Positions 17,514 to 62,209 of a stretch of DNA of 64,000 nt are shown here, piece by piece. The first letter of the stretch is position 1, and every line of letters begins with the position of its first letter. The DNA comes from Catalimonadaceae bacterium JC749 (GTDB lineage: Bacteria > Bacteroidota > Bacteroidia > Cytophagales > Cyclobacteriaceae). The position numbers and the translations under genes are program-made. The stretch spans positions 62,001 to 126,000 of the forward strand of contig JAJNNC010000018.1 of assembly GCA_021730635.1 (NCBI GenBank), given 5' to 3'. Below the pieces are notes generated by a model. It made no database searches and was not told the DNA's origin. It saw only the letters and a program-made list of their open reading frames with translations.

Positions 17514-17630
17514 GGTGAAGGGTTAAGGACTGAAGGGGTGAAGGACTGATGGGTTGAAGGATTGAGGGGGTGAAGGATTAAAGGGGTAAAGGATGGAAGG
17601 TGGGAAGGATTGAAGTGTTGAAGGGGGTGA
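17514..17630. repeat. Octamer tandem repeat array R1 (consensus AAGGAYTG, plus orientation)
   Basis: Starting on the base after the bestrophin stop codon, about 14 consecutive 8-base units can be laid out: GGTGAAGG, GTTAAGGA, CTGAAGGG, GTGAAGGA, CTGATGGG, TTGAAGGA and so on. Phase is kept over more than 100 bases while individual bases vary. The same octamer family recurs at about 50.4, 50.9, 54.1 and 62.1 kb. Confidence 0.85.
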
Positions 17631-17741
17631 TTAATACTTTTATTTCAAAGAAGAACGCTCAACGCAATACTTAAAACTCAGAACCTAAAAATATAAACTC
17701 GGAACCTATAACTCCAAACTTAAAATAAGAATTAAGCATTA

Positions 17742-18458
17742 ATGAAGATACTATATATTTTTCCCCATCCTGATGATGAATCTTTCGGGCCCGCCGGTGC
17801 CATGGACAGACAGCTCAAACAGGGTCATGAAGTGTATTTACTGACGCTGACGCGGGGAGGTGCTACCAAACAAAGATTCAGACTAGGGCTGAGCGTGGAG
17901 GAAATGGGATCCGTACGTTACCAGGAAATGCTGGATGTAGAGGAAACCCTGGGTCTCAGTGGGATGACCGTCCTGGATTTACCCGATAGCGGCCTGAAAT
18001 TCATGGACCCCCGAGATATTGAAGAAGTAGTGAGAGAACATATAGAAATCATCATGCCCGCTGTTATCGTAACTTATCCGGTGCACGGAGTGAGCGGATT
18101 TCATGATCACCTGGTGACCCATGCCATCGTGAAAAGGCTCTTTCTGGAAATGCGGGATCAGGGAGCTACCTATCTCAAAAGGCTGGCTTTTTTTACCATG
18201 AAAGATAATGGGGACCCTCAATTCAAAAAAGGGAACATGTTTCGCATCAAGCAGTCTACGGCTGAGGAAATCAGCTGTATCATTAAACTGCAGGAAGAGA
18301 ACATTCAGGCTTTAAAGAATGCCTTGCGGTGCTATCAAACTTACCAGGAAACTATTCAAAATACAGGAGTAGTAGAAGCTGTGGGTGATACCGTTTATTT
18401 TGAAATTTTTGGAGAAAGTCATCACCCACCGATCAATGATTTAACTATTGGTTTATAA
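17742..18458 (+). CDS. PIG-L/LmbE family zinc deacetylase
   Basis: The 238-residue protein shows the PIG-L deacetylase zinc site: HPDDES at residues 9-14 (His9, Asp11/Asp12) and the distal His in SGFHDHLVTHA. The family removes acetyl from N-acetylglucosaminyl-type substrates (for example in glycolipid or bacillithiol-type thiol pathways). The substrate here is not determinable. It is cytoplasmic, with no signal peptide, and monocistronic. Its end overlaps the 3' end of the convergent membrane protein gene by six bases. Confidence 0.9.
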   Translation: MKILYIFPHPDDESFGPAGAMDRQLKQGHEVYLLTLTRGGATKQRFRLGLSVEEMGSVRYQEMLDVEETLGLSGMTVLDLPDSGLKFMDPRDIEEVVREHIEIIMPAVIVTYPVHGVSGFHDHLVTHAIVKRLFLEMRDQGATYLKRLAFFTMKDNGDPQFKKGNMFRIKQSTAEEISCIIKLQEENIQALKNALRCYQTYQETIQNTGVVEAVGDTVYFEIFGESHHPPINDLTIGL

Positions 18459-18887
18459 TTTTTTACCCCTGCTCACATACCAGGGAATACAAATAGCAGC
18501 CACCACACCGGCAATGTAATGCATGGGTAAGGCCAGACCAATAAAGCCATCCGGCACAGGCGTCCGGTTAGGCAGTTGAGAAATGGCCATCAAACCGCTA
18601 CTGGCCACCGTGAGAAATGCCGTTAAAATCAGAAAAACCATGGTAGGTTTGTTGGTAGACTTTGAAAACCCATAGTATACCAGAGAAGCTAACACCAAAG
18701 GTACGATGGAAGCTGCCGCGACCGAAATAAAATTGATCACACTAGGGGCTTCCACACCCGTAATTGCCGTATAGGTAGTATGGTAAATGTTGTTTAATAC
18801 GGCTGCAATGATACCAGCAATCAGCCCTCCCGTCAGATATCGCTGAAGGGAAACGCCTATACTTTTTTCGTCAGTTACCGGATACAT
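18453..18887 (-). CDS. Four-helix membrane protein (DUF6069-like)
   Basis: The 144-residue protein has four predicted membrane segments: about 18-33, 52-75, 82-103 and 120-138. The motif LPMHYIAGVVAAI near the end and the overall layout recall DUF6069 proteins; function is unknown. It lies between convergent PIG-L and the TrkA-C-type membrane protein, and is possibly co-oriented with the latter (51 bases apart). Confidence 0.65.
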   Translation of the reverse strand: MYPVTDEKSIGVSLQRYLTGGLIAGIIAAVLNNIYHTTYTAITGVEAPSVINFISVAAASIVPLVLASLVYYGFSKSTNKPTMVFLILTAFLTVASSGLMAISQLPNRTPVPDGFIGLALPMHYIAGVVAAICIPWYVSRGKKL

Positions 18888-18938
18888 AGTATATATGTTT
18901 TGTTTTATCTAAAATAATCAATAAAAGATCAAAAGGTT

Positions 18939-19718
18939 TTACACTTTTACAGCTTCCTTCTCCCGTTTCATTGCTTCTCGCTCCCTCTTTTGCTGTTCTG
19001 CTACGGCTTTCCGGTGTTCCCTTCTACCCGCAAGCCCTTTTTTTCTATGTTGCAGGTGAACAAGGGCATCATCTTTCCCATATACAATCAGCAAGTCATT
19101 AACACAAACCATTGTTTCCCCATGCGGTAACCCGACATAGTGCCCGTCTTCTTTTTCAATGCCCAGCACATTTAAGCCTTCTTGTCTCAACTGAAGCGTT
19201 ATCAGCTTTTTATCAGCCATCCAATGCCCTTCCTCTATCAGTATTTCTGTAATTTGATAGCCATTGGCCAGGTGCAGAATACTGGAAAAATCTTTTACCT
19301 GAATATCCGTATGTCTATTGAGCCAGTAGTTGATCCGGCGCGAAAGCCAACGGTTGACCCAGGCGCTAGTAGAAAGATACCATAATCCTACTAAACCGGC
19401 AACAAGTGTGAGTGTCCGGTAAAGCCATTCAAAGGAGCCTGCCCGGCTATCCATAAAAGTCAGTACCAGGGAAGCCAGCACTGAAATAATCCCCACATTC
19501 CCCAAAAGCATCAGGATCATGATAATCCGCCTCCTGACCGGATGAGACACAATCCTTTCGGATTCACGCGTGGAGAATCCGACACCGGTGAAAGCCGAAC
19601 GCGCCTGAAAACGAGCTACAGGTTCAGACAAGCCTGTATGCACCAGGGCAATGGTAGCCACCCGTGTCATGAGCATTGATATGGTGATAATCACAATGAG
19701 AGATAAAACAGAAGCCAT
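18939..19718 (-). CDS. Membrane protein with C-terminal TrkA-C (RCK_C) domain
   Basis: The start at 19718 (MASVLSLIVIITISMLM) is chosen, giving 259 residues. The longer in-frame extension to 19880 would overlap the divergent DUF4385 gene and reads as hydrophilic non-family sequence. Three to four membrane helices occupy residues about 1-130; SAFTGVGFSTRES is conserved in this protein type. Residues about 160-220 form a TrkA-C fold (EGHWMADKKLITLQLRQEGL, GETMVCVNDLLIVYG). The tail is highly charged (Lys/Arg/Glu) and coiled. It probably senses a ligand for ion transport; transported ion and partner are unknown. Confidence 0.8.
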   Translation of the reverse strand: MASVLSLIVIITISMLMTRVATIALVHTGLSEPVARFQARSAFTGVGFSTRESERIVSHPVRRRIIMILMLLGNVGIISVLASLVLTFMDSRAGSFEWLYRTLTLVAGLVGLWYLSTSAWVNRWLSRRINYWLNRHTDIQVKDFSSILHLANGYQITEILIEEGHWMADKKLITLQLRQEGLNVLGIEKEDGHYVGLPHGETMVCVNDLLIVYGKDDALVHLQHRKKGLAGRREHRKAVAEQQKREREAMKREKEAVKV

Positions 19719-19814
19719 ACTATATTCTTTCGGTAAAAATCTGTTTCCTTCACTTTTATTAAACTTTAGCCTGTCGCTTTGGTTTGCCTCATAATACTTT
19801 TCCTGTGATTCCTT

Positions 19815-20309
19815 ATGGCATTTGACTACTCCCTCGACTTCAGTAAAATTAATTTCAGAGAAAATCCGGAACTTTATCAAGTTGGCAAAGGAGAGCAGGG
19901 CGTGTTGCTGGTTGAACCTTACAAATCTGAAATTTTACCTTACTGGCGCTTTAAGACTCCGGAGATCGCCCAGGATTCCTCTGAAAAAATTTACCAGTTA
20001 TTTTTAAGCTACCTGGCAGAAAAAGATTTTGTAGGTGCTGATATGGCCCGGAAATTTTTACAGATGGGATATACCCGTGCTCGCCGTTATGCCAACCATA
20101 AAAGTGGCAAAAAGTATGAGCAGAACCCTCAGAAAGAAAACACGGAGGAAGCCCAAAAAAAAGCCCGCCAAAAGGTACTACCCCGCCAGGAAGATCCGGT
20201 AAAAGCGGCGGCGGCGCTTATTTTTAAAGAAAAATGGCATCTGGCCAAAAACAACAAACAATACCAACAAATGATGGAAGTACACCGTAAGCGAGAAAGA
20301 AAGGGATAG
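19815..20309 (+). CDS. DUF4385 family protein
   Basis: The 164-residue cytoplasmic protein matches the DUF4385 family closely from its start: FDYSLDFSKINFRENPELYQ, GKGEQGVLLVEPYKSEILPY, DMARKFLQMGYTRARRYANH. The C-terminal third is rich in Lys, Gln and Glu. Function of the family is unknown; it is often found in cellular organisms and large phages. It is divergent from the TrkA-C gene (96 bases between starts) and 58 bases upstream of the riboflavin synthase gene on the same strand. Confidence 0.9.
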   Translation: MAFDYSLDFSKINFRENPELYQVGKGEQGVLLVEPYKSEILPYWRFKTPEIAQDSSEKIYQLFLSYLAEKDFVGADMARKFLQMGYTRARRYANHKSGKKYEQNPQKENTEEAQKKARQKVLPRQEDPVKAAAALIFKEKWHLAKNNKQYQQMMEVHRKRERKG

Positions 20310-20367
20310 CTTGCAAAAAAGATTCCCATTCTCGTTTTTTGTGTTATTGACATTATAATATACGCTC

Positions 20368-20973
20368 ATGTTTACTGGTATCATAGAATCGGTAGGAGAA
20401 GTGGCAGATATGGTAAAAGAAGGTAGCAATTGCCACTTTGAGATTCGCAGTACCCTGGCCCCTGACTTAAAAGTAGATCAAAGTATCAGTCATAACGGGG
20501 TCTGCCTCACTGTGACTGAAGTGACTGGTGAGACCTACTGGGTAACGGCCATCAATGAAACCTTACAAAGAAGTAATTTGGGCAGGTTGCAGAAAGGCAG
20601 CCCTGTGAACCTGGAACGTTGTATGTCTGCGCAAGGCCGCTTCGACGGACATATTGTGCAAGGACATGTAGACCAGACCGGGGTATGCCATAAGATCACA
20701 GAGGAAGCGGGAAGCTGGCTCTTCGAGTTCATGTACGAACCTGCCGCTCAAGATTACCTCACTGTAGAAAAAGGCTCCATTACAGTAAACGGGGTTAGTC
20801 TGACCTGTTTTCATGCCCACGACAATGGTTTTACCGTAGCGATCATCCCCTACACTTTCCAGCATACCAACTTTCACCAACTGCAGGAAGGCGATCTGGT
20901 AAACCTTGAGTTCGATATCATTGGAAAATACATCAGCAGAATACTAAGCCGCCAGTCTTTTGGCAAACTTTAA
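20368..20973 (+). CDS. ribE: Riboflavin synthase (alpha subunit)
   Basis: The 201-residue enzyme converts two 6,7-dimethyl-8-ribityllumazine molecules to riboflavin and a pyrimidine. It shows the two-lobe internal repeat: MFTGIIESVG with NGVCLTV in lobe 1, and GHIVQGHVDQTG with VNGVSLT in lobe 2. Length is normal. It stands apart from other rib genes, and no FMN riboswitch fits in the 58 bases upstream. The stop overlaps the convergent PAP2 gene by four bases. Confidence 0.96.
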   Translation: MFTGIIESVGEVADMVKEGSNCHFEIRSTLAPDLKVDQSISHNGVCLTVTEVTGETYWVTAINETLQRSNLGRLQKGSPVNLERCMSAQGRFDGHIVQGHVDQTGVCHKITEEAGSWLFEFMYEPAAQDYLTVEKGSITVNGVSLTCFHAHDNGFTVAIIPYTFQHTNFHQLQEGDLVNLEFDIIGKYISRILSRQSFGKL

Positions 20974-21578
20974 CCAGTATTCATTTCTTTTTCCAGTGCT
21001 TTTGACTGTATGGGCATGCCAAAGACTTTCTTGGTGATATAACAATATATGACATAAACACTCCAACCTACCCCTATTCCGGCACTGGCACCCACAAAAA
21101 GATCTACAGGGTAGTGTACCCCTACATAAATCCGGCTGTATGCTACGATAGCTGCCCACAAAAAGGCATAAGCAAATAAGTGCGTCCAGCCCCGAAGCAT
21201 GAGCCATAAAGACATAGCCAGTCCGAAAGTGGTAGAAGCATGGGAAGAAGCGAAACCATACCGTCCGCCACACCCCCCTACCACATGGACCATCCCCTGG
21301 AGATCCGGATGATGGCAAGGTCTTAAGCGTCCGAAATAAGGCTTCATAAAGCCAGAAGTCAGCTGATCGCTCAACCCTACGGCGATGATAACCCCTACCA
21401 TCATCAAAACACCCTGCCAGCGGTATTTCCAGGCAACAATGAGCAGTAGAATCAGGTAAAAGGGATACCAGGTGTATTTGTAAGTAATCCAATACATGAC
21501 AGTATCAAAAAACTCATTGTGTATGCCGTTGAGGAAAAGAAAAAGTTGTTCGTCTATTTCCCTGATAATTTCAACCAT
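20970..21578 (-). CDS. PAP2-family membrane phosphatase
   Basis: The 202-residue polytopic protein has all three phosphatase motifs: KPYFGRLRP, YGFASSHAS and SRIYVGVHYPVD (catalytic His in the second and third). About five membrane helices are present. Bacterial relatives dephosphorylate undecaprenyl pyrophosphate or lipid phosphates at the periplasmic side of the inner membrane. A lipid-carrier recycling role is plausible but not shown. Single gene, convergent with ribE. Confidence 0.92.
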   Translation of the reverse strand: MVEIIREIDEQLFLFLNGIHNEFFDTVMYWITYKYTWYPFYLILLLIVAWKYRWQGVLMMVGVIIAVGLSDQLTSGFMKPYFGRLRPCHHPDLQGMVHVVGGCGGRYGFASSHASTTFGLAMSLWLMLRGWTHLFAYAFLWAAIVAYSRIYVGVHYPVDLFVGASAGIGVGWSVYVIYCYITKKVFGMPIQSKALEKEMNTG

Positions 21579-21813
21579 GTGGTGTAGTGGTTGTATGTAT
21601 TAAGATGACTACTATACTGGCCGCTAAAATAAAAATTTTAATGTGAAAATGATCAGTTCTCACTCAATACAACCTTCATTTAAGGGAGTTGTTGAATCTG
21701 AGTAACTCTCAAGACGAAAATTTAATGGAGTTGTTGGTGAAATGGTATCCTGTAGAAATGTCTTTGACAGAACAGCTCCTGTCCAAGAGGTGTTTCACAC
21801 GCAATAGAGGGAA

Positions 21814-22746
21814 TTAATAGCCTAAGCCGTTGCGGAAAATAAACTGGTCATAAGCTGTTTTGAAAGCCTGAACATGGGGTGCCAAAGAAATGGCATATTC
21901 GTAATTGGTTAGAGCATCGGCCAGCAGGTTGTTTTGCTCGTAGAAAGAAGCCAGAATCAGTTTATCCAGGGCATTTTCTTTTCCGGCAATCTCCAGCTTT
22001 AGTTCTTTGAGCTCTCTTTCTATGGGCTCAGCTTCTTCCGGTGTCATGTGTTTGATGCCATAGTTGCTGGACTGTATGTCTTTGAACTGCTTGGCGTTCA
22101 CACTGACAATCACGAGCCTTTCCTGGGCAATGGCCTGTTCGGAAAAGTCGAGCATTAACCGGGTTTCCTGCGTCTCTTTGGTCATGATGACCTCATCAAA
22201 CATATTTTTGAAGACCACTTCGTATCCTTTGGTCAGGGTATCTTTATCGTTCCATCGGAGCACTACTTCAGGACTGAAAACGTCCACGGAATTGGGTAAG
22301 AGTACCTTCAGCTTACTGTTAGGCACCGCCCTTTCGGCGGTAGTGGCCACAGGCGGGGTAGCCGACTGCTTCTGTGCACCACTCTGCATATTTTGTATAT
22401 AAAGGTTGGCATATTTGGTGGCTATGCCTGACTTATTATTTTTGAAGCGTGCATTTAAATGGGCAATTTCATAAGTGCCTTGTTTGTCCAAGGCTAACGT
22501 CTTTCCACTCGCATGAACCAAACCCAGATAAGCCCCTTCTTCTAATTTAACTACATCGTTGACAGAAAGCGTCGCATTTGGCGTGATAGGTTTCCACTCT
22601 TCTCCTGAATGAATCTTAATGGAACCATTTTCAGCCAGTATTTTAAAAGCATAATCCTGCGCCCATAATTTGTTAGGCAAAAACAAATAAAGCAACCCTA
22701 GTAGGAGGAAGAGGCAAGTAGATTTGTTTTTCTTCATAATTAACAA
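21814..22746 (-). CDS. Secreted FecR-like domain protein
   Basis: The 310-residue protein has a signal peptide (about residues 1-29, ending LWAQ). Residues about 35-105 resemble a FecR-type beta domain (GSIKIHSGEEWKPITPNATL, NDVVKLEEGAYLGLVH). The central part holds beta-strand repeats, and the C terminus (about 240-300) is helical with a TPR-like repeat (LILASFYEQNNLLADALTNY). No anti-sigma or membrane helix is present, so it is not a classical FecR. Function unknown; periplasmic scaffolding is possible. Confidence 0.6.
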   Translation of the reverse strand: MLIMKKNKSTCLFLLLGLLYLFLPNKLWAQDYAFKILAENGSIKIHSGEEWKPITPNATLSVNDVVKLEEGAYLGLVHASGKTLALDKQGTYEIAHLNARFKNNKSGIATKYANLYIQNMQSGAQKQSATPPVATTAERAVPNSKLKVLLPNSVDVFSPEVVLRWNDKDTLTKGYEVVFKNMFDEVIMTKETQETRLMLDFSEQAIAQERLVIVSVNAKQFKDIQSSNYGIKHMTPEEAEPIERELKELKLEIAGKENALDKLILASFYEQNNLLADALTNYEYAISLAPHVQAFKTAYDQFIFRNGLGY

Positions 22747-23213
22747 TTTTGCTTTATTTTATCCCGCTCTCATCAAAGGGAGAAGCAAACATTTTCAAAA
22801 AAATTTGATGCTCCTAAAGTATTGATTTGTAACACACCCTCACAGAGATATAAAACCTAAACATTACTTTGGTAATAAAGCCTAACCAATATCCGATTGA
22901 CTAAATTCTGTATTAAAATTATCCAATAACACACAAAAATAGCCCTTTTTATACAAAATATAAAATAAACAACAATCTTTCACAAGCATATTCTGTAAAT
23001 TATTAGAAAAGTACAATAATATATACAGGTATCTTGTTAATGTACTACTTATGAGTGCTTGGTACATTAAAAATAGCCCCCCTCACCGTTTCACCGGAAT
23101 TACACCACTTCTATTCATTCTCTTGAAGGGCTTTCAGATTAAAAAAACAAAAAAAGAGATAGACGGAAAGTACAATTACGTTATTTTTCAAATTGTATAG
23201 GAGTCATAAAGAA
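22747..23213. other. AT-rich intergenic stretch without recognisable gene
   Basis: It separates the FecR-like gene (minus) from the meaB unit (plus). Frames are short and without family motifs; many A and T runs. It probably contains both divergent promoters. No terminator or repeat was found. Confidence 0.5.
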
Positions 23214-23427
23214 ATGAAAATAGCTACGAAAATGGTACATTCTCTACAACAGTTTTATATTTTAGTGGGATGGCAGTTGGTTTAGCAGTGACGAACAAGA
23301 AGGCTCTCTATACGATGAACAATGCTGGCGAATACCTCATCGCTATTGTCATGGCTCAGGTATTTATCTGCATACGGATCAAGTAGCTGTGCTAAACTGC
23401 CTATCTGAAGAACTGATCTATCTATGA
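23214..23427 (+). pseudogene. Small frameshifted gene translationally coupled to meaB (uncertain)
   Basis: From ATG 23214 the frame reads MKIATKMVHSLQQFYILVGW and stops at 23283. In the +1 frame from 23266 the sequence reads WDGSWFSSDEQEGSLYDEQC, WRIPHRYCHGSGIYLHTDQV, AVLNCLSEELIYL and ends in TGA at 23425-23427, overlapping the meaB ATG by four bases (ATGA). The second part looks protein-like but has no start. One lost or gained base around 23260 would join them into a protein of about 70 residues. It is either a recent pseudogene, a sequencing error or a frameshifting gene; the family is not recognised. Confidence 0.4.
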
Positions 23428-24422
23428 AGCAACATCCAAAACAGGCCCGTCTCCCTTTAGAAACCTATCTGCAAGGCATACAGCAGGGAGATCGGTATAT
23501 GCTCAGCAAAACCATCACCCTCATGGAAAGCAGGCTTCCTGAGGATGCCGAAAAAGCGGATGCCTTGTTGAATCAACTGATGCCCAGCACAGGGAAGGCG
23601 CTCCGCCTGGGGATTACCGGAGCCCCTGGCGTTGGCAAAAGCACATTGATTGAAACTTTAGGAACTTACTTAACACAGCAAGGCATCAGAATAGCTGTAC
23701 TGACGATCGATCCGAGCAGTACCCGCACCGGAGGAAGTATTTTAGGAGATAAAACCCGCATGCCCACTCTTTCTCAGGACCCTCTGGCTTTTATCCGCCC
23801 TTCACCTGCCGGAAACTATCTGGGGGGTGTGGGTAGGAAAACCCGGGAAACCATGTTGTTGTGTGAAGCAGCAGGCTATCAGGTTATTGTGGTAGAAACA
23901 GTGGGCGTAGGTCAGTCAGAAACGCAGGTACGACATATGACCGACTTTTTTCTGCTGCTCCTGCTGGCCGGAGCCGGCGACGAACTGCAAGGACTCAAAA
24001 AAGGCATCATGGAATTGGCCGATGCCATTGTCATCAACAAAGCCGATGGCGAAAATGTAAAATACGCCAAAAAAGCCCAACATGATGTTAAAAACGCGCT
24101 GCATTTGTTTACCGCACCGGAAAGCCAGGTACCTCCCCGGGTCTTCACCAGTTCAGCATTGCAACAGGAGAGCCTCATCCCTATCTGGCAGTTTATCCAG
24201 CTTTATCAGGAACAAACTACCCGGAATGGTTTTTTCTACCGGAACCGCAAGGCGCAGAACCTGCATTGGTTTCACCACACCCTGCAGCATTTTCTGGAAG
24301 ATCACTTTTTTAAGCATGACACTATAAAGCAGCAACTTCCCTTAGTAGAAAAACAAGTAATAGAAGGCACCCTTTCAGCTACCCAGGCAGCCCGGTATTT
24401 AATGACTCAATGGCTTTCCTGA
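23424..24422 (+). CDS. meaB: MeaB/ArgK G3E-type GTPase, methylmalonyl-CoA mutase chaperone
   Basis: The 332-residue GTPase protects and reactivates adenosylcobalamin-dependent methylmalonyl-CoA mutase. Motifs are the P-loop GAPGVGKST (about 66-74), the Mg-binding Switch region LTIDPSS, ETVGVGQSE, and the specificity NKAD in AIVINKADGENVKYAK. The family segment ILGDKTRMPTLSQDP is present. Length is usual. The mutase genes are not in the window. The ATG overlaps the stop of a small upstream frame. Confidence 0.95.
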   Translation: MKQHPKQARLPLETYLQGIQQGDRYMLSKTITLMESRLPEDAEKADALLNQLMPSTGKALRLGITGAPGVGKSTLIETLGTYLTQQGIRIAVLTIDPSSTRTGGSILGDKTRMPTLSQDPLAFIRPSPAGNYLGGVGRKTRETMLLCEAAGYQVIVVETVGVGQSETQVRHMTDFFLLLLLAGAGDELQGLKKGIMELADAIVINKADGENVKYAKKAQHDVKNALHLFTAPESQVPPRVFTSSALQQESLIPIWQFIQLYQEQTTRNGFFYRNRKAQNLHWFHHTLQHFLEDHFFKHDTIKQQLPLVEKQVIEGTLSATQAARYLMTQWLS

Positions 24423-24441
24423 CCAAAGCAGGCTGGCTTGC

Positions 24442-28936: not shown

Positions 28937-29047
28937 AACGCTAACCGTTATTAATCAGTCATGGAAAATGAGCATTTACTCATTTCATCCTTCACCTTCG
29001 TAAAGGTTCAAAATTAATAAGATTAACGAAGAAAAAGAGATAAAAAT

Positions 29048-50441: not shown

Positions 50442-50545
50442 CAAGGAATGGAAGGATTGAAGGGCTAAAGGACTGAGGGACTGATTAGATTGAAGGATTG
50501 AGAGTTTGAAGGATGGATTAACAGAAGGAATGAAGGATCAGAGGA
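50442..50545. repeat. Octamer array R2 (plus orientation), left of the four-helix-bundle gene
   Basis: Units AAGGATTG, AAGGGCTA, AAGGACTG, AGGGACTG, AAGGATTG, AGAGTTTG, AAGGATGG, AAGGAATG, AAGGATCA and GAGGATTG can be read at an 8-base step, with two 9-base slips. The array runs into the first codons of the four-helix-bundle protein gene. Confidence 0.75.
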
Positions 50546-50898
50546 TTGAATTTAGAGATCAGTTTAAATTGAGAACGAAGCAGTTTGCTTTGCGTGTGAT
50601 TAAACTATATCAAGCATTGCCTAAAACCAGTGAAGCTCAGATTTTAGGCAAACAATTGTTACGTTCTGCGACTTCAGTGGCAGCAAACTATCGAGCAGCC
50701 TGTCGTGCTCGTTCAAATAAAGAATTCTTTGCTAAGCTAAGTATAGTAGTAGAAGAGGCTGACGAAACTTTGTTTTGGCTGGAATTGCTTACAGAAGCTG
50801 AGATTGTAAAAACAGAAAAGCTTATCACGCTTATGCAAGAAGCTACAGAAATATTGAAAATGGTTGCCTCCGCCAGAAAAAAAGTATCTAATTCATAA
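50506..50898 (+). CDS. Four-helix-bundle (S23/IVS-type) protein
   Basis: The 130-residue protein belongs to the four-helix-bundle family first noted in 23S rRNA intervening sequences (TIGR02436-like): ALRVIKLYQALPKTSEAQIL, GKQLLRSATSVAANYRAACR, EFFAKLSIVVEEADETLFWL. Members form pentameric basic barrels; Avd of diversity-generating retroelements is a relative. Here there is no rRNA or reverse transcriptase. The first about ten codons overlap the octamer array, so the true start may be the ATG at 50530 (MKDQRIEFRDQ). It is the only plus-strand gene in this part of the cluster and is bracketed by oppositely oriented octamer arrays. Confidence 0.88.
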   Translation: MKDGLTEGMKDQRIEFRDQFKLRTKQFALRVIKLYQALPKTSEAQILGKQLLRSATSVAANYRAACRARSNKEFFAKLSIVVEEADETLFWLELLTEAEIVKTEKLITLMQEATEILKMVASARKKVSNS

Positions 50899-50956
50899 AC
50901 AGACCTTCAATCCTTCAAACCATCAGTCCTTACCACCTTCAGCTCTTCAGTCCTTA
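50899..50956. repeat. Octamer array R2' (inverted orientation), right of the four-helix-bundle gene
   Basis: After the stop codon the plus strand reads CTTCAATC, CTTCAAAC, CATCAGTC, CTTACCAC, CTTCAGCT, CTTCAGTC, CTTAATCT at an 8-base step, the reverse complement of the AAGGATTG-type unit. It extends into the last codons of the convergent NeuD-type gene, where AAGGACTGA gives the terminal Lys-Asp-stop. Confidence 0.75.
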
Positions 50957-52875: not shown

Positions 52876-52994
52876 GGATCAGTGATTGAATGTGAGAATG
52901 GTTAAATGAGTAAATGACTGATTCATAAGATATTTGAATAGTACTAATAAATGGCTCATTACTCATTGTTTTACTATTAATTGTATAAACTATT

Positions 52995-54086
52995 TTGAGC
53001 AGCAAAGATACAAGGAATCAGAAATTTATCGCGATATTTTGCCCATATCCACAGGCAGGCGCTCCCAGTCAGCGCTTCCGGTATGAACAATATCTGGATA
53101 TACTGCATCAGCACCAGGTCCGCTATGAGATTTTTTCCTTTCTGGATGCGCATACTAACGCAATTCTATATCGGAAAGGCCATACCTTACAAAAAGGATG
53201 GGGGGTATTAAAGGGATTTTTCAGAAGATTCTCTCATCTTTTCCAATCCAGAAAGGCCCACTATATTTTACTGCACCGGGAAGCTGCTCCCCTGGGTCCA
53301 CCCGTTTTTGAATGGATGATGGCGAAAGTGATGGGAAAGAAAATCGTCTATGACTTTGACGATGCCATCTGGCTGCCCAACATCTCAGGTGTCAACCGGA
53401 TCGCTGCACGGCTCAAGTGGCACCAAAAAGTAGCGGCTGTGTGCCGGTGGAGCTATAAAGTAAGTGCCGGCAACGCCTATTTATGTGAGTATGCCTCCCA
53501 ATTCAATCAGAGGGTCGTGCTGAATCCTACGACGCTCGATACGGAACACCTCCATAATCGTATTCAGGACCAAGCCGCTGAGATACCCGTGATAGGCTGG
53601 ACGGGTTCACACTCCACCATGATGTTCCTGGATCAGCTCGTGCCTACGCTTCAACGTCTTTCAGAGGCATTTACTTTTAGAGTGGTCGTCATTTCTAATC
53701 GTGCCCCAGCCTTTGCATTACCGCAAATGGAATTTGTTCCCTGGAAAAAGGAAACAGAAATAGAGGATTTGCTTCGTTTTCACATAGGAGTGATGCCGCT
53801 GACCCAAGATCCCTGGTCGGAAGGAAAATGTGGTTTCAAAGCTTTACAATATTTGTCGCTGGGCATTCCGGCGGTGGTATCCCCTGTGGGTGTCAATCAG
53901 GTCATTGTAGAACAGGGTATCAATGGTTTCCTCTGTTCGACTGAAGATGAGTGGTACGATGCCCTGGCTACTTTGATGAAAGATGCTACCCTTCGGGCAA
54001 AGATGGGTACTGCCGGAAGAAAGAGGATTGAAGACCGGTATTCGGTGAAGGCCAATCAGAAGAACTTTCTGGGTTTGTTTGAATGA
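52995..54086 (+). CDS. GT4-like glycosyltransferase, probable TTG start
   Basis: The 363-residue GT-B protein has FIAIFCPYPQAGAPSQRFRY, YILLHREAAPLGPPVFEWMM, KIVYDFDDAIWLPN and the C-terminal FHIGVMPLTQDPWSEGKCGF followed by KALQYLSLGIPAVVSPVGVN (Gly-Lys-x-Gly-Phe-Lys acceptor loop). No ATG precedes the conserved N terminus in frame; TTG at 52995 gives MSSKDTRNQKF. It is divergent from the LegC-type gene (119 bases). An octamer array follows its stop directly. Confidence 0.9.
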   Translation: MSSKDTRNQKFIAIFCPYPQAGAPSQRFRYEQYLDILHQHQVRYEIFSFLDAHTNAILYRKGHTLQKGWGVLKGFFRRFSHLFQSRKAHYILLHREAAPLGPPVFEWMMAKVMGKKIVYDFDDAIWLPNISGVNRIAARLKWHQKVAAVCRWSYKVSAGNAYLCEYASQFNQRVVLNPTTLDTEHLHNRIQDQAAEIPVIGWTGSHSTMMFLDQLVPTLQRLSEAFTFRVVVISNRAPAFALPQMEFVPWKKETEIEDLLRFHIGVMPLTQDPWSEGKCGFKALQYLSLGIPAVVSPVGVNQVIVEQGINGFLCSTEDEWYDALATLMKDATLRAKMGTAGRKRIEDRYSVKANQKNFLGLFE

Positions 54087-54200
54087 GGGAAGGATTGAAG
54101 GATTGAAGGACTGAAGGACTGAAGGGTTGAGGGATTGAGGGATTGAGGGGGTGAAGGATTGAAGGACTGATGGGCTGAAGGATTGAGGGGTTGTGGTGTT
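54085..54200. repeat. Octamer array R3 (plus orientation)
   Basis: From the stop codon of the glycosyltransferase the plus strand reads GAGGGAAG then about 13 units of AAGGATTG, AAGGACTG, AAGGGTTG, AGGGATTG, AGGGGGTG, ATGGGCTG at a strict 8-base step. It is the cleanest array of the family in the window. Confidence 0.9.
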
Positions 54201-54210
54201 TGGTTTTTTG

Positions 54211-55878: not shown

Positions 55879-57242
55879 GCTTGCTGATGAGGTACAGGTA
55901 TTGCTTTATTTCTCTTAATCCATTTGAGGTCATGGGCGTAGTAGCGCAGGATAAAAAGCCCTGCCAGATAGAAAGGAAACATAGGAATCTTATAACGAAC
56001 CAGGGAACCAAAGTTATAGGTAGAGATGCCTACGGCAAAACTGAAGGCAATGGCAAAGACAAAACAGAACAGAATGATAGGTTTGGCCGTCATGTGCTTG
56101 AAAAGCTGACCTATCCCTGACTTGTACAGTACCAGCAAAGTCAGCCAAAGGGTAGCCAGGCTTTCCAGGGCTGAAAGCAACATCACCGGGTTATGGGCTT
56201 CCCACAGATATGGACGAAACAAGGTGACATTCACAGCCAGCGGAAATTTCCGTAGCATACCGTCCAGACTATAATCGTAATCATCGCCCAAAGTGTAGAC
56301 AGACCCTCCCTGGTTTTCTCCTACATAGGTCAGGTAGCGCGCAGTAATTTCCGCCGTCTGGGCTACATTATCCATAGAATACCGGGCGTTATCTTCTCCT
56401 ACTTTGATCATAGCATAATACCCCAGGGTTACCGCTATTGCCAGAACAAAAGGTGCTATTGTAATCCTGATCATCTTGGAGGGAATTGTTTCGAGATTGG
56501 CTAAGAAGACCCAAAGAATGGCAGCGGGTAAAAAGCATAATACAATGTAGATCTTAATGGCATAAATCGTATATAAGGCCATCAAGAGTATGGTGGTAGC
56601 TGTCAGAATGCCCTTTTTTTCAAAGAAAATACGCATGATCGCCCAGGTGGCCCAACCTAAAGCGCCCAGGGTAATGGTGTCTTTCAGGATACCGGAACCC
56701 CAGAAAAAAACGGAAGGAATAAATAACATAGCCAGCGCCAGTTCCTGATGAAGCAAAGGAAAGTGTTTGTAGAAAGAACGGTACAAAGCCCACACCCCGC
56801 TATAACTGAGGGCAGCATACAGCACGGCCGTTGCCGCATAGGTATGGCCTGTGAGCAGTCCTAACAACGCCGTTATTTTGATAACAAAATATTCCGTAGG
56901 AGATTTGAACCAGTAGATCCTGCTGGCATATTCCAGAATTTTAGGTGTATACTCACCATTGGCCAGTAATAATTCCATGCCCGTGACAGAAGATTTCCAG
57001 AAGGCTTCTACAATAATACCTGCTTGTCGGAAATAATTAAAAGTATCTCCACTGGGTTTCCCATGACCATAATAGAATTGATAGATGATCCCTACGGCAA
57101 GGGCACCGATGATTTTCACGGTAAGGCCAGCCATATAATACTTTCGGATATGCTTATCGGTAACGGCAGGGCGTATCAGGAAAGCCAGCAGGTATATAAT
57201 GGCTAACCAGACAGGAGTAATCATTAAATCTTTAACGCCCAT
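55875..57242 (-). CDS. Polytopic membrane protein (GT39/O-antigen-ligase-like, function unknown)
   Basis: The 455-residue protein has about ten membrane segments. A central periplasmic loop (about 285-325; TARYLTYVGENQGGSVYTLG) and the motif FIPSVFFWGSGILKDTITLG are common to a Bacteroidota family found near polysaccharide genes. It may be a lipid-linked sugar processing enzyme (polymerase or GT-C like), but no catalytic Asp pair is certain. It is coupled to the Wzi-like gene, so a role in surface glycan assembly is inferred. Confidence 0.7.
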   Translation of the reverse strand: MGVKDLMITPVWLAIIYLLAFLIRPAVTDKHIRKYYMAGLTVKIIGALAVGIIYQFYYGHGKPSGDTFNYFRQAGIIVEAFWKSSVTGMELLLANGEYTPKILEYASRIYWFKSPTEYFVIKITALLGLLTGHTYAATAVLYAALSYSGVWALYRSFYKHFPLLHQELALAMLFIPSVFFWGSGILKDTITLGALGWATWAIMRIFFEKKGILTATTILLMALYTIYAIKIYIVLCFLPAAILWVFLANLETIPSKMIRITIAPFVLAIAVTLGYYAMIKVGEDNARYSMDNVAQTAEITARYLTYVGENQGGSVYTLGDDYDYSLDGMLRKFPLAVNVTLFRPYLWEAHNPVMLLSALESLATLWLTLLVLYKSGIGQLFKHMTAKPIILFCFVFAIAFSFAVGISTYNFGSLVRYKIPMFPFYLAGLFILRYYAHDLKWIKRNKAIPVPHQQA

Positions 57243-57347
57243 GAGCCGAAGGGATTTTTTTCTCCGGCAAAATAGACTTATTTTCTAAACACGGCTGAGG
57301 AGAATGTCTTGCTTTCTTACCTGTTTCTTACCCGTGACCGTTTTTTT

Positions 57348-58841
57348 TCAAAAGTCCAGTGATTTACCCTGGTAAAAGTCCAAAACTTTCAAACTAAATA
57401 CATATTGGTATTTAGAGCGGATCAGGTCAGACTCTGCGGTATTGAGATCATTTTTGGCCTGATTGTAATCTACTACCTCTATACCACCCGCCTGGTAACG
57501 GATCTCCGTATTTCTGAAAGCCTCTTGTAAGGAAGTAACTCTTTTTTGATTGGCGACATAACTTTTAGCGGCTGACTTAGCATCCAGATAGGCCTGCTCA
57601 ATGGTCTGCCTCAGTTGGTTTCGCTGGTCAATAGCATTCAGGCGGGCATCGTCCAGATTAATATAAGCATTGGAGACATTGGTTTTCGCCTGCCAGTTGT
57701 TGAAGATGGGAATATTCAGATTGAGGCTTACATAACGACGCAGATTGAAATCAAGTTGGTTGAGATACGTATTGTCAGTAAACTCACTGGGAATTTCAGT
57801 CTCTGTAAAGACAGGCACCTGGGTACCCTCCGGCACGCCCGGAATCCCGGGGGGCGCTATGATGAAATTACTGGTGGGGATGATGCGGGTAATATTCTCT
57901 GTGCCTGCTTTCGGGATCTGGTCGGGCGCTACACTGGAATATGAGGAAAACAGAGCAGCACTCAGGGTCAAAGAAGGATAATAACCGGCTTTGTTGATCG
58001 CCACATTGTATTGCGCACTGGTAATCTGCAGATCAGCACTACGGATAGAGGGTAAGGTTTGGACAGCCTGTTGGTAAACAAAGGTAGCGGAAGCAGGCAA
58101 CGCTTCTTCTTCGGGTACGGCTACCTCCGGGGTGACAATCTCTAACGACTGACTGTCGGGTATTTGCAGAATCTGCTTCAACTGCAGCCGGGCCAGCGCC
58201 AGGTTGTTTTCAGCATTGACAATCTGGAGTTCATCATTGGCCTGCTGGGCTTCCAGTTGTAAGACATCAGCGGAAGGTAAACTCCCTGCCTGCACTAACT
58301 TACGGGTACGCCCCAACTGCAATTCGGTATTTTGCAATTGCAGCCGGGTGGTGTTGAGTAACTCCTGGTTGTAGAGTATCTGGGTATAGGCTTCAATCAC
58401 ATTGAGGGTAATATCATTTTCAGTAGCTTCCAAGTTACTTTGGCTGATCTCTATATTATTTTTGTTCAGCTTAATGGTGTTCAGTTTCCGGAAGCTGTTG
58501 AAAAGAATCACCTCTGCCCCCACATTGACACTTTGCTGGCGCACCGGCTGGTCAACGTATTCATTACTAAACTGATTGATGGTGCGCCCTACGCTATAGC
58601 TTACACTCGAGCTGGCCCCTATGGAAGGCAGCAGATCTGCTTTAGACTGTTTTAACGCTACCTGATCGGCCAGCACATTCAGCTTACTGCGCTGTACAAC
58701 CACATTGTGCTTAATAGCATAGTCAATGCACTCCTGTAGTGTAAAGGTAAAGTCTGTTTCCTCAGAGGGAGTATTCTGTGCCAGCAGAGGAGAGAAAAGC
58801 CATAAGAAAAGAAAGAGGGATTGGAAAAAATGCCATCTCAT
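57348..58841 (-). CDS. TolC-family outer-membrane efflux protein
   Basis: The 497-residue protein has a signal peptide (about 1-21) and two OEP repeats with long amphipathic helices: FTLQECIDYAIKHNVVVQRS, KLNKNNIEISQSNLEATEN, LARLQLKQILQIPDSQSLEI, and NLNIPIFNNWQAKTNVSNAY, RYQAGGIEVVDYNQAKNDLN. Such trimeric channels serve tripartite efflux or type I secretion. No adaptor or pump gene is adjacent. It is 15 bases from the LytTR regulator upstream, so the regulator, kinase and TolC may form one transcript. Confidence 0.93.
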   Translation of the reverse strand: MRWHFFQSLFLFLWLFSPLLAQNTPSEETDFTFTLQECIDYAIKHNVVVQRSKLNVLADQVALKQSKADLLPSIGASSSVSYSVGRTINQFSNEYVDQPVRQQSVNVGAEVILFNSFRKLNTIKLNKNNIEISQSNLEATENDITLNVIEAYTQILYNQELLNTTRLQLQNTELQLGRTRKLVQAGSLPSADVLQLEAQQANDELQIVNAENNLALARLQLKQILQIPDSQSLEIVTPEVAVPEEEALPASATFVYQQAVQTLPSIRSADLQITSAQYNVAINKAGYYPSLTLSAALFSSYSSVAPDQIPKAGTENITRIIPTSNFIIAPPGIPGVPEGTQVPVFTETEIPSEFTDNTYLNQLDFNLRRYVSLNLNIPIFNNWQAKTNVSNAYINLDDARLNAIDQRNQLRQTIEQAYLDAKSAAKSYVANQKRVTSLQEAFRNTEIRYQAGGIEVVDYNQAKNDLNTAESDLIRSKYQYVFSLKVLDFYQGKSLDF

Positions 58842-58856
58842 GAAACAGAGGTTGTG

Positions 58857-59552
58857 TTAATGTCTGGATAATCTTTGCATGAAAGCTTCCCGAAAGACTT
58901 CTCCTATGGGAATTTCAACCGTATCCATAAACACTTTCCTCTTTTGTACGAGGCTTACTCTTTCAAAATCTATAATATAACTCCGGTGAATACGAATAAA
59001 ATTATCCGGCAACAAATCTTCCAGGGCCTTCATACTCATCAACGCAATCACCGTTTTTCCGGTTGTATGAATTTTCACATAGTCTTTCAGCCCTTCAATG
59101 TAGAGTATTTCATTGAACTTTACTTTCACAGTATCATACCCGGATTTTACAAACATATACTCCTTATCGGTGACTACCTCACCGTTTTTATGCTGCAAAT
59201 TAATCAGGTGAGAAGCTTTGTTGACCGCCTTCAGAAAACGCTCGAAGGTAAAAGGTTTTAACAGGTAATCTACCGCATCCAGGTTGAAACCCTCCAGGGC
59301 ATAATCGGAGTAAGCCGTGGTGAAAATGACCAGGGGCTGGTAATTCAGACTTTTCAGGAGTTGTACGCCAGACACTTGAGGCATTTGTATATCCAAAAAC
59401 AGCAGCTCAATATCATGCTGATGCATCAGCTCCATGGCTTCCATCGCACTGGTGCAGCCTTTGATGAGTTTCAAAAAAGGCACTTTCTCAATAAAATCTT
59501 CCAACACATCCAGTGCCAGCGGTTCATCATCAATAGCCAGGCAGTTAATCAT
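58857..59552 (-). CDS. LytTR-family response regulator
   Basis: The 231-residue protein has a receiver domain (1-120; IDDEPLALDVLEDF, phospho-acceptor Asp54 in LFLDIQMP, Lys in YLLKPF) and a LytTR DNA-binding domain (about 125-231; EILYIEGLKDYVKIHTTGKT, FIRIHRSYIIDFERV). It regulates genes with direct-repeat sites in response to its adjacent LytS-type kinase, whose stop it overlaps by eight bases. Target genes are unknown, but the TolC gene downstream is a candidate. Confidence 0.95.
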   Translation of the reverse strand: MINCLAIDDEPLALDVLEDFIEKVPFLKLIKGCTSAMEAMELMHQHDIELLFLDIQMPQVSGVQLLKSLNYQPLVIFTTAYSDYALEGFNLDAVDYLLKPFTFERFLKAVNKASHLINLQHKNGEVVTDKEYMFVKSGYDTVKVKFNEILYIEGLKDYVKIHTTGKTVIALMSMKALEDLLPDNFIRIHRSYIIDFERVSLVQKRKVFMDTVEIPIGEVFREAFMQRLSRH

Positions 59553-60582
59553 GGATAAGGTCCAGTTTTAATGAGACTTTGAAGGTATCCCCGTCCTGTT
59601 GAATTTGTAAGTGGTGTCGTTCGGGGTATAACAAATGTAATCTTTTTTCTATATTTTTTAGTCCTATACCGGAATGTTTGTCTTTCACATGGCCATTTTT
59701 TGCCAGCGTATTTTCTACCTTAAAGAACAACTGATTATCTTCTACCTTCAGGCAGATATCTATTTTTGCTTTTTCCTGAAATACATCGCCGTGTTTGAAA
59801 GCGTTCTCCACAAATGGCTCCAGGAGCATGGGTTCTATGCTTTTCGTCTCAATGTCTCCTACGGTTTCAAAATTAATCTTCGTTTGCCGGTTGATCCTCA
59901 GTTTTTGCAGGTCTATATAATTGTGCAGATGTTCCACTTCTTTGCTCAGATTGATTTGCTCAGCCGTAGAATCATATAGCATATAGCGCATCATTTCCGA
60001 CAGTTTGACAATGGCTTTGGGAGCATCGTCTGATTTTTTAATAGCCAGCGAGTAAATACTGTTCAGGTTGTTAAACAAGGAATGAGGATTGATCTGAGAC
60101 TTCAGCAAAGCCAGTTCGGAAGCCATTTTCTCATTTTCCATTTCCTTTTTCAGCCGTTCGTTTTTAAACCATTCTTTGGTCATTTTTACGCCTCCACTGA
60201 TGGTCAGCACCAATAAGCTGTTCATGAAAGCCTGTCCGGTCACAATGCGCGGGAACCAATGGTTTTCTTGGTAAAAGTCAGCATTGATCAGCAATTGTAT
60301 CCCGTGATAGGTATAAATAATCAGGAGCAACGCTCCCACTATCGTTAAGATGTACAGGGTGATTTTCTTTTTGGCCAGAAAATGAGGAATAAAGACATTG
60401 GTATTGGTATAAAACAGCATCGTCAATGGCACCATGTAAAGGAATACCTGGAGGATAGAGTTAGGCCTTTGGATCGGAAGGCTCAGAATAAAAAACATGA
60501 TCAGCGAAAACAGTAACCATCCAATCAGATGAATAACCATTTCTCTTCTTTTCTTCTTACGTGTCATCATGGCTTGTTGCAT
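59545..60582 (-). CDS. LytS-type sensor histidine kinase (His_kinase family)
   Basis: The 345-residue protein has four membrane helices (about 17-133) and a His_kinase domain with phospho-acceptor His167 in KSQINPHSLFNNLNSIY, then the short HATPase-like part with LLEPFVENAFKHG and DKHSGIGLKNIEKRL. The family motif is normally NPHFLFN; Ser here replaces Phe. The first in-frame ATG is used; another at residue 15 is possible. It forms a two-gene system with the LytTR regulator. Confidence 0.92.
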   Translation of the reverse strand: MQQAMMTRKKKRREMVIHLIGWLLFSLIMFFILSLPIQRPNSILQVFLYMVPLTMLFYTNTNVFIPHFLAKKKITLYILTIVGALLLIIYTYHGIQLLINADFYQENHWFPRIVTGQAFMNSLLVLTISGGVKMTKEWFKNERLKKEMENEKMASELALLKSQINPHSLFNNLNSIYSLAIKKSDDAPKAIVKLSEMMRYMLYDSTAEQINLSKEVEHLHNYIDLQKLRINRQTKINFETVGDIETKSIEPMLLEPFVENAFKHGDVFQEKAKIDICLKVEDNQLFFKVENTLAKNGHVKDKHSGIGLKNIEKRLHLLYPERHHLQIQQDGDTFKVSLKLDLIHD

Positions 60583-60751
60583 ACTACTAATGATTCAACG
60601 TACCAAAGATACTTTGAATTCCACTGAGACGGTGATATGATAGACAAGCCATTGGATTTTTTCTACTGAACTGCAAAAAAAATCGCTTAATGACGAAACT
60701 ATTTTCAGCAATTTCAGAAGCTGATTAGCCCTTATCCTTTGAAAAGAAAAC

Positions 60752-62209
60752 CTAATAATCCTGATGAATGGCTTTCAGTATTTTTTCCATTTCAAATTTG
60801 TAGACAGAGGAGGAAGTGACATAATTGTTGTGCATAAAACTGAAGATCAGCTTTTTCCCGGTCCGGGTGATTAAATAGCCGCTTAGAGCATGTTTGTTGC
60901 TCAGGGTGCCGGTTTTGGCAAAGACATAAGGCTCCCCTGCCTCATTTTTATACCAGTCTTGTATGGTGCCCGAAACGCCACCGGCCGGAAAGATATTAAA
61001 TATTTCCTCATCCTCCAGTTCTTCGTCTACTTTACGGAGCAGTGCTACAATAGTCCGGGGTGTCTGCAAATTGTACCTTGATAAGCCCGAACCATCAACC
61101 CAGACGGGTTCATCCGGCAGATCTTCCAGATAATGTTGCTTTACATAAGCAATGGCCGAGTCGATGCTGAGCGTATCCCGGAATTGAGAAGAACAAACCA
61201 ATAATAACTGTTCTGCCAGAAAATTATCACTGATGTGCATCATCCGTCTGTAAACGCTGTCTGCGGGCACGCTATAGATTGTCTGCGGGAAAGTTTTCAG
61301 CGAGCCCTGGTATCTGTTCACTTTCCTGTGCAAAGTGTCTGCCAGCAGGTTTAACAACAGGTCGGTAGAATATTTAAAGGGAATATCTTCTGTAAAGGCC
61401 AGGGTGTCGTCTTTGGGTGCATATTGAAAGTAATTATCATGTTGGTTGCGGCGTATATAATCCGGCAATACCGCTTCACTGGCGAAGCCGGTAATATATG
61501 AAGTGAAAAAATCCGGATACGCCAGGGGCTTGGGCAGATGCTTCTTAAACTGAAAACGCACCAGATTCGCGTAAATGGGAAACACTGATTTTTCCGTTGA
61601 GTAATAATAGTTGTAATCACTCCAGGCCCAGCCCGGCCCGAAATAATCGTCCTGCGAAGGTCTTTCTATGTAAAATAAGGGCTGCTCAGCCGATTGCAGA
61701 AAATGGTAGACACCTTGCTGATGCGTGGTATCAAAACGATAGATGTCGGGATGCAGGAAGGTAGGATCACCGGTACCGGTAAAAATCAGGGAATCTCCGT
61801 TTACTGCGTATTGTAACGCCGGAATAGAATCTCCTAACATTTTCAGGCAGGCATACAGGGTAAAAATTTTGGTATTGGAGGCAGGCGTATAGTATTTATC
61901 GGCCTGATATTCGTAGACCATTTCGTCCCGTTCAGGATCATATAAAGCAAATCCTGTAAAATTCTGGTCAAAGACAGGCGATTGATCTACCATTTGCCTA
62001 AACTGCCGGGTATGGACACCAGGACGGTTGGCGCAAGACATGAGTACAAACAGAAGGATAGAATAACTGAAGGACTGAAGGATTGAAGGATTGAAGGCTC
62101 GAAGGATTGAAGGATTGAGGGATGGAAGGACTGAAGGGTTGAAGGATTGAGGGATTGAATTATATTGATTCTTTATGTTTTGTTTGTGTCTATCACTGGG
62201 AAACTTCAT
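60752..62209 (-). CDS. dacB: D-alanyl-D-alanine carboxypeptidase/endopeptidase (PBP4, S13 family) lipoprotein with repeat-derived leader
   Basis: The 485-residue protein has the S13 motifs SNTK (Ser111, Lys114), SDN in HISDNFLAEQLL, WVDGSGLSRYN, and KTG in FAKTGTLSNKHALSGYL. It trims or cleaves peptidoglycan peptides. The lipobox LMSC gives Cys59 as acylated residue. Residues about 17-48 come from the octamer array (period-8 peptide: SFNPSVLP, SLNPSILR, AFNPSILQ, SFSYSILL), an unusual leader before the hydrophobic segment SYSILLFVLMSC. The natural start may be disturbed; ATG 62209 is the only upstream in-frame start seen. Confidence 0.9.
   Translation of the reverse strand: MKFPSDRHKQNIKNQYNSIPQSFNPSVLPSLNPSILRAFNPSILQSFSYSILLFVLMSCANRPGVHTRQFRQMVDQSPVFDQNFTGFALYDPERDEMVYEYQADKYYTPASNTKIFTLYACLKMLGDSIPALQYAVNGDSLIFTGTGDPTFLHPDIYRFDTTHQQGVYHFLQSAEQPLFYIERPSQDDYFGPGWAWSDYNYYYSTEKSVFPIYANLVRFQFKKHLPKPLAYPDFFTSYITGFASEAVLPDYIRRNQHDNYFQYAPKDDTLAFTEDIPFKYSTDLLLNLLADTLHRKVNRYQGSLKTFPQTIYSVPADSVYRRMMHISDNFLAEQLLLVCSSQFRDTLSIDSAIAYVKQHYLEDLPDEPVWVDGSGLSRYNLQTPRTIVALLRKVDEELEDEEIFNIFPAGGVSGTIQDWYKNEAGEPYVFAKTGTLSNKHALSGYLITRTGKKLIFSFMHNNYVTSSSVYKFEMEKILKAIHQDY
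62067..62159. repeat. Octamer array R4 inside the 5' end of the PBP4-type gene
   Basis: The plus strand reads CTGAAGGA, CTGAAGGA, TTGAAGGA, TTGAAGGC, TCGAAGGA, TTGAAGGA, TTGAGGGA, TGGAAGGA, CTGAAGGG, TTGAAGGA, TTGAGGGA at an 8-base step. It lies antisense to the lipoprotein gene and encodes an eight-residue peptide repeat there. Confidence 0.9.

Follow-up and report, generated by a model that had tools for sequence, protein, structure and literature searches.

Inverted octamer arrays around a 23S rRNA intervening sequence protein gene in a Catalimonadaceae genome and their possible relation to a palindromic repeat family

A 64,000-nucleotide stretch of the genome of Catalimonadaceae bacterium JC749 (contig JAJNNC010000018.1, positions 62,001 to 126,000), here called the window, contains several tandem arrays of an eight-base unit. 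An original prediction from the sequence had treated these as free-standing tandem repeats. This did not hold for the arrays starting at 50442 and 50899, which form an inverted pair enclosing a gene for a 23S rRNA intervening sequence protein (IVP). The architecture of octamer array, IVP gene and inverted octamer array is well supported. It was seen to recur across phyla, with a period of 8 or 7 and with inverted arms; gene-less copies were observed in one Hymenobacter genome, as was the presence or absence of elements between related genomes at two sites. The arrays might be the arms, or half arms, of a palindromic mobile family which resembles both the intervening sequences (IVS) of 23S rRNA and REPINs (hairpin-forming doublets of repetitive extragenic palindromic [REP] sequences), and whose full-length member carries the IVP gene; we regard the case for this reading as evenly balanced.

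The left arm of the window element (50442..50550, plus strand) is an octamer array with one 9-base unit, and its last units hold an in-frame ATG of the IVP gene (50530..50898, plus strand). The gene has 122 codons from the ATG at 50530, or 130 codons in the longest version of the open reading frame (ORF), which starts from a TTG at 50506. The right arm (50899..50956, minus strand) is an inverted octamer array which starts one base past the IVP stop codon. Both arms were detected with a period-8 profile, and in the RNA fold they paired, a long stem closing around the gene (z-score -3.8). The element is not within a 23S rRNA gene; its neighbours are genes for an ABC-2 permease and for a NeuD-type acetyltransferase. 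In family scans, the protein matched TIGR02436 (E 1.2e-27) and PF05635 (E 3.6e-20; '23S rRNA intervening sequence protein'). Sixteen columns were invariant in an alignment of 22 relatives, the window protein included, and the invariant residues include R8, K10, Q35, R38, N46, R48, R52, K62, E68, D71, E72, F75 and W76 (numbering starts at window base 50551). The AlphaFold2 model was a confident four-helix bundle (pLDDT 96). A Foldseek search with this model retrieved 2RLD and 2GSC, both of the S23 family, followed by Avd of the Bordetella phage diversity-generating retroelement (DGR; 4DWL) and the reverse transcriptase (RT) particles 8UB7 and 8UB8. The TM-score to Avd chains was about 0.8 on the query, with E values of 0.016-0.041 for the best chains (0.016-0.022 for 4DWL and 8UB7) and a sequence identity of only 13%. 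A resemblance of PF05635 to Avd has already been stated in the accessible text of an earlier report (PMC10053308). Family scans of 10 window proteins found no RT, no genome-wide RT search being made.

The flanks of the gene were compared in the best 80 of 561 relatives of the window IVP in the genome collection. Lag-8 repetition (at least 24 of 40), in flanks reaching about 330 bases from the gene, was found upstream in 54/80 and downstream in 46/79 loci, compared with 3/77 and 6/76 (9/153 together) for controls more than 1.1 kb away. The corresponding counts for other periods (upstream, downstream; controls) were 1, 0; 1, 0 for period 5, 7, 2; 0, 1 for period 6, 11, 11; 1, 7 for period 7, 0, 1; 0, 2 for period 9, 0, 0; 0, 1 for periods 10 and 11, and 9, 4; 1, 2 for period 12, so that a small excess at periods 6 and 12 was also seen in these single-flank counts. 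When both arms were considered jointly (sum of at least 48), the best period was 8 in 47 of 76 loci and 7 in 10 of 76, against a single control among 73. Among the loci of period 7 are those of a cyanobacterium (Fischerella) and of Chloroflexi. Uniform behaviour of all TIGR02436 proteins was rejected as a description: in a generic subfamily (32 of 35 loci used, three with cut flanks being dropped; 29 from top-scoring TIGR02436 matches with a locus), period-8 flanks were present in only 3/32 loci upstream and 3/32 downstream, and inverted flanks at threshold were present in 12/32, mostly without arrays.

Inversion of the arms was assessed by local alignment of the upstream flank with the reverse complement of the downstream flank (threshold 36). 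Inverted arms were observed at 55/76 loci, compared with 0/73 far-flank pairs and 4.2% of cross pairs; the direct orientation reached the threshold at 17/76. Both arms could be read in 39 of 76 loci. Here the unit distance (of 8) was 1.33 between the arms of one locus and 3.79 in the direct orientation; for arms of different loci it was 3.07, or 1.72 when the loci were at the same site. Where the flanking genes were homologous, both arms could differ in unit, as in L096 with GAAGGATT and L152 with GAGTGAAT, and shuffling of the right arms within same-site groups gave p = 0.0054 (7 groups, 21 loci). These comparisons of sequences suggest that the arms of one IVP locus tend to change together.

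Matches were also present in 21 plasmid records, and the flanks were analysed in nine of these, six of them cyanobacterial. At all nine plasmid loci, both arms scored higher for period 7 than for the other periods from 6 to 9, with weak values in some arms (20-23 of 35), and the inverted scores were 31-78, compared with 13-20 for far flanks. On two Nostoc plasmids, four heptamers lie on either side of the IVP gene. As to gene neighbourhood, the IVP gene is found between genes annotated DUF1156 and Swt1-HEPN on two plasmids (L270, L271), between a helicase and an N-6 DNA methylase on another (L275), and between csx2 and cas1 on a fourth (L277). These IVP genes of cyanobacterial and Chloroflexota plasmids look like members of putative defence clusters; 23S_rRNA_IVP genes within cas loci are already in print, in the text accessible of PMC3936711.

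The octamer was then related to the genome in which it occurs. Four unit patterns were searched in 27 genomes, forward and reverse, with up to 2 mismatches, and the reversed controls were 0 except for five genome-pattern pairs with 1-7. GAAGGRYT gave 94 matches in the window genome, 81 in the L096 genome, 27 in L103, 19 in L089, 7 in L113, 6 in L084, 1 in the congener and 0 in the 20 others. GARTAAYT was absent from the window genome (0 matches) and most frequent in Pinibacter (L108; 953), followed by L084 (55), L081 (32), L120 (27), L091 (18), L089 (10), L086 (8), L113 (5), L114 (4), L103 (3), and L145 and L099 (1 each), with 0 in 15 others. The numbers for GGTGARAT were 220 (L131), 210 (L117), 126 (L091), 64 (L087) and 15 (L106) in the Hymenobacter genomes chosen for it, and, among the other 22 genomes, 27 in L119, 1 in L145 and 0 in 20. 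For GAATGAGT, 163 matches were found in L152, 48 in L114, 34 in L096, 20 in L140, 19 in L100, 10 in L091, 6 each in L145 (control 3) and L120, 2 each in L089 and L106, and one each in the window genome, L131 and L117, the 14 others having 0; it had been expected in L152, L114, L140 and L145, and was clear in all of these but L145. The octamer at the IVP gene varies among genomes, and in most of those tested it is also the unit of the dispersed arrays. The matrix is a measure of agreement and not an unbiased rate, because the flanks guided the choice of genomes and patterns and the search did not cover the units of several genomes. By eye, the octamer array of genome G021, near a contig end (L060, contig C40), has a CRISPR-like array within a few hundred bases of it, and in other Bacteroidota (L058, L063, L067) short-period, low-complexity tracts, AACTTTT-like or GTAACAGG-like, adjoin the matched arrays.

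The whole 8.0-Mb window genome was scanned, as had been suggested for this family, with three consecutive GAAGGRYT units and up to 3 mismatches. There were 136 matches (96 forward, 40 reverse), and the reversed pattern, used as a control, gave 0. The matches listed comprise at least about 25 array sites, of which four are in the window and the other 21 in 20 regions around matches. The 227 complete units of 30 array segments gave the consensus G-A-A-G-G-R-Y-T; GAAGGATT (50) and GAAGGACT (36) were the most frequent. The GAAGG strand has stops in all three frames in 27 of the 30 segments and in two frames in the other three. The congener, the only other genome of the genus examined, had only the single match listed above, and this match is one of the two inverted octamer arms that flank a related IVP gene (74% DNA identity over 323 bases). 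The congener element is at a different locus, beside a cas4-like ORF (by eye), and its gene copy carries a premature stop. An array pair was not present in the lpd-pdhC gap of the congener, the one site examined there for an empty counterpart. The suggestion in the original prediction that the arrays are mobile or expanding elements is thus supported by their dispersal in the window genome and near absence from this congener. Two further arrangements were noted in the window genome: a second IVP-family gene (L031, C67:402754-406065) has period-8 tracts of another unit, TACCACCG and TACTACCG, on both flanks in direct orientation, and two arrays that are direct and not inverted enclose an ORF of 94 codons (L043 3020-3491, contig C4).

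Gene-less hairpins were studied in H. aerophilus (G447), in 20 loci selected because their array matches were paired. All 20 have inverted arms of the GGTGARAT type forming hairpins of 110-326 bases in all. In most of them the arms are followed by a GGTGAGTTTGAYGTTC-like inner sequence, and an inner sequence beyond the arrays, GAGTTTGAYGTTC-like, is common to the elements (both by eye). None of the 20 contains an ORF of 50 codons, the longest having 49. The two arms of one element were more alike than arms of different elements (61.9 vs 53.8; 0 of 5000 permutations). An open frame of at least 120 codons, counted as a frame and not as a gene call, ends at most 20 bases from the left edge in 15 of the 20. 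Three of the octamer hairpins (L168, L169, L177) share a second palindrome, GTCATCCTGAGCGCAGCGAAGGACC..., in their cores, as if one repeat family had been inserted in another.

One Hymenobacter intergenic site was resolved in 14 of 16 genomes, the hairpin classes being assigned by eye. Six genomes have GGTGA-type octamer hairpins, two have other octamers, one has heptamers, four have palindromes without a clear array, and one has an IVP gene between GAGTGAAT arms. The last is H. psychrotolerans, in which the IVP gene therefore occupies a site where other Hymenobacter have gene-less hairpins. Thirteen stretches of this site were folded, and 12 had z-scores of -2.1 or lower and one had -1.3, several of the sequences being unrelated. 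The orthologous copies of G447, G459 and G456 have left arms of 4, 3 and 4 units (by eye), and this difference by whole octamers in one arm agrees with the original suggestion of mobile or expanding elements. At a second Hymenobacter site (by eye), an octamer hairpin was present in only 3/16 genomes, with terminator-like or other sequence in most others. Long, near-perfect palindromes without arrays (L251/L260 and L252/L259, in G444 and G463; fold z-scores -13.9 and -12.7) were observed at the same intergenic site as the octamer hairpins of related species.

The remaining arrays of the window are solo. The profile, which was built from three window arrays, recovered those three and found the others, with scores of 124 (17520-17625), 158 (54079-54193), 145 (62053-62159), 58 (50900-50955, minus strand) and, for 50444-50550, 48, 36 and 27 in three blocks; the maximum in the reversed window, used as a control, was 18.9. 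Tandem Repeats Finder concurred on the period-8 arrays, and the positions originally predicted for them proved right within about 15 bases. The units had been described as constant in length, a description that fails for the array at 50444-50550: the profile splits there in a phase shift because of the 9-base unit near 50485. The array at 17514..17630 (plus strand) has 12 complete units in phase, of the GAAGGRYT type, and had no partner array within 1.5 kb; a 21-base repeat, AAACTCAGAACCTAAAAATAC (2.2 copies), follows it at 17674-17720. It directly abuts the stop codon of a bestrophin gene, and the array of 14 units at 54079..54193 (plus strand) starts over the stop codon of a GT4-type glycosyltransferase gene, in agreement with the two gene-end positions predicted. 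The fusion of one array with coding sequence was likewise confirmed: the 13 units at 62053..62159 (plus strand) lie within the N-terminal part of a D-Ala-D-Ala carboxypeptidase ORF (DacB, Peptidase_S13; 60752-62209, minus strand), and in translation encode its NPSILQSF-type N-terminal stretch. The strand opposite GAAGG has no stop in any frame in 17 of the 30 array segments, which accounts for the reading of an array as the start of DacB. In this region (62053-62209, minus strand), the array-encoded stretch precedes a lipobox-like LMSC (by eye), and the signal region of a lipoprotein may have incorporated an array. A weaker pattern suspected at 52878-52925 was traced to 52884..52921 (plus strand), where a period-8 stretch scored 22.5, barely over the control maximum and not clearly distinct from it.

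On the reading as a palindromic mobile family, a full-length element would consist of an octamer array, a four-helix-bundle IVP gene and an inverted array, as in an IVS but between protein genes. Shorter copies would have kept both arms around a gene-less core and would fold as hairpins, and single arrays would be half elements, much as REP singlets have been read as REPIN remnants (PMC3116915, accessible text). The transcribed hairpin might serve as the substrate, to which the IVP, with its Avd fold, might bind, helping to copy it in trans to new places. The number of units would shift as whole octamers slip or are copied anew. Insertions may be kept tolerable by a close fit to stop codons, together with RNase III cleavage of the stem, as for the 23S IVS. 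The role of the IVP as mover, perhaps via reverse transcription, is inferred because of the shared unit and the Avd fold; on this model the IVP would drive the spread. An extension of this idea, which we regard as unlikely, is that IVP proteins are the mobility factors of a widespread class of bacterial elements with arrays of 7- or 8-base units at their ends, and that, like Avd, they act with a host RT to copy hairpin RNA and rewrite the arrays unit by unit.

Several observations weigh against the mobile-family reading. In the window genome, solo arrays and not hairpins were found at 20/25 sites, and inverted pairs at only 4/25. The arms there did not match their own partner clearly better than other arrays (the four pairs ranked 1, 10, 5 and 12 of 28), the pair of the window element being the worst-ranked, and only one of the seven IVP-family genes of this genome is flanked by GAAGGAYT arrays. 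Elsewhere, the arm units are unlike at L103 and L113, and also at L105; GAATGAGT is weak in one of the four genomes in which it was expected, G439 (6 matches vs 3 in the control), and present in G430 (34 matches), a genome assigned to another class. The generic subfamily is seldom array-flanked, with the 3/32 period-8 loci given above. IVP-family genes (TIGR02436) were present in 40/47 genomes examined and their presence does not predict arrays; because they are so common, the count has no power on whether arrays depend on them. The relation to Avd is by fold only, a sequence search giving just 2RLD of this fold significantly, and we know of no transposase motif in the IVP. Neither an insertion event nor a target duplication nor an enzyme activity was observed.

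The main rival holds that the hairpins are independent repeats moved by a REP-associated tyrosine transposase (RAYT) or another transposase, and that IVP genes settle in their loops as passengers, as they do in 23S helices. We consider this a real but lesser possibility. It fits the array-less hairpins of G444 and G463 at the shared Hymenobacter site, where the IVP gene is only one of many cores between similar arms, and the inverted, mostly array-less flanks of the generic subfamily. Genome G384, with 7 array matches and no TIGR02436 match, also speaks for it and against a dependence on the IVP. Against it stand the agreement of the unit in the IVP arms with that of the genome-wide arrays in most genomes tested, and the position of the only pattern match in the congener, at its IVP gene. 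No transposase was noticed among the array neighbours read, although no family search of neighbours outside the window and no genome-wide RAYT search were made.

Alternatively, the arrays may simply be simple-sequence repeats, with slippage making the octamers and quasi-palindrome template switching copying one arm to the other, without any element or trans-acting factor. The whole-unit differences between orthologous elements and the matching own arms in G447 fit this, and so do the arms of the window element, which match no better than chance draws. Slippage leaves unexplained, however, why one unit occurs at tens to hundreds of places per genome, and also the GAGTTTGAYGTTC-like inner sequence of the G447 elements, the strong link to the IVP gene and the restriction of the best joint arm period to 7 or 8 at threshold. 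If it acted alone, the arrays would have independent local origins and share nothing beyond the unit; instead, the same unit was found at about 25 sites, and the G447 elements share inner sequence (by eye). This account is quite unlikely.

Selected RNA signals, namely hairpin terminators or mRNA processing sites with fast-changing sequence and conserved structure, are highly improbable as the explanation: the 12/13 folded stretches at one Hymenobacter site and the closeness of some arrays and many elements to stop codons agree with them, but the hairpin is present in only 3/16 genomes at the second site, the lpd-pdhC gap of the congener is without arrays, solo arrays have no pairing partner within 1.5 kb, and the gene pairs around the window-genome arrays (by eye; about 7 convergent, 13 tandem and 5 divergent) show no convergent preference. 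Of the original proposal of transcription-end structures there is thus left a possible side effect at the several arrays flush with stop codons. Free-standing promoter or terminator arrays were put aside as the main explanation, in view of the link to the IVP gene and of a unit that is specific to the genome.

Among known systems, the closest parallel to the mobile-family reading is the 23S rRNA IVS, in which, as here, an ORF of the S23p/IVP family lies between stem-forming inverted repeats. Unlike the 23S IVS, the elements described here lie between protein genes and have stems built of 7- or 8-base units in arrays; the unit is genome-specific, and gene-less copies exist. In the Coxiella IVS, three tandem heptamers (GACAGAT) lie upstream of the ORF; it was called selfish, and its mobility is left unexplained in the accessible text of that report (PMC4990558). 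With REPINs and RAYTs, the elements have in common the inverted hairpin doublets, the dispersed non-autonomous copies and a gene flanked by the same repeat. The flanked gene here encodes a four-helix-bundle protein and not a Y1 transposase, and a tandem array takes the place of the 20-40-bp REP. The original statement that the layout is not that of known REPs is thus half right, as the arrays replace the REPs and the logic of the REPIN is retained. The DGR protein Avd has the same fold as the IVP (4DWL, 8UB7; TM-score about 0.8); neither an RT nor a template/variable repeat was recognised among the loci read, no RT search being made.

Short tandemly repeated repetitive (STRR) sequences are the heptamer arrays of cyanobacteria. 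The accessible text of PMC4679880 describes TAACTGA arrays, intergenic and patchy, in Beggiatoaceae, cyanobacteria and some Bacteroidetes, reports that the heptamer arrays of two Cyanothece strains differ mostly by 7-nt steps, and finds no transfer mechanism evident; its main text is without the words four helix, S23, IVS and octamer. Compared with these published arrays, the heptamers described here flank IVP genes on cyanobacterial plasmids and are inverted. An octamer satellite family has been named in Mesorhizobium (PMC6749651, accessible text). In the titles and abstract openings of the open-licence papers listed by literature searches, IVP or four-helix genes were not tied to octamer or heptamer arrays outside 23S rRNA. 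The presence of the IVP family between inverted arrays in several phyla, and the link of IVP and array, make the transfer of heptamer arrays and the function of IVP/S23 proteins testable together. The hypothesis ties together the intervening sequences of 23S rRNA, REPIN-like hairpins and the Avd of retroelements. If IVP proteins did act as mobility factors, one account would cover the octamer arrays found in Bacteroidota, the cyanobacterial heptamer arrays and the intervening sequences of 23S rRNA.

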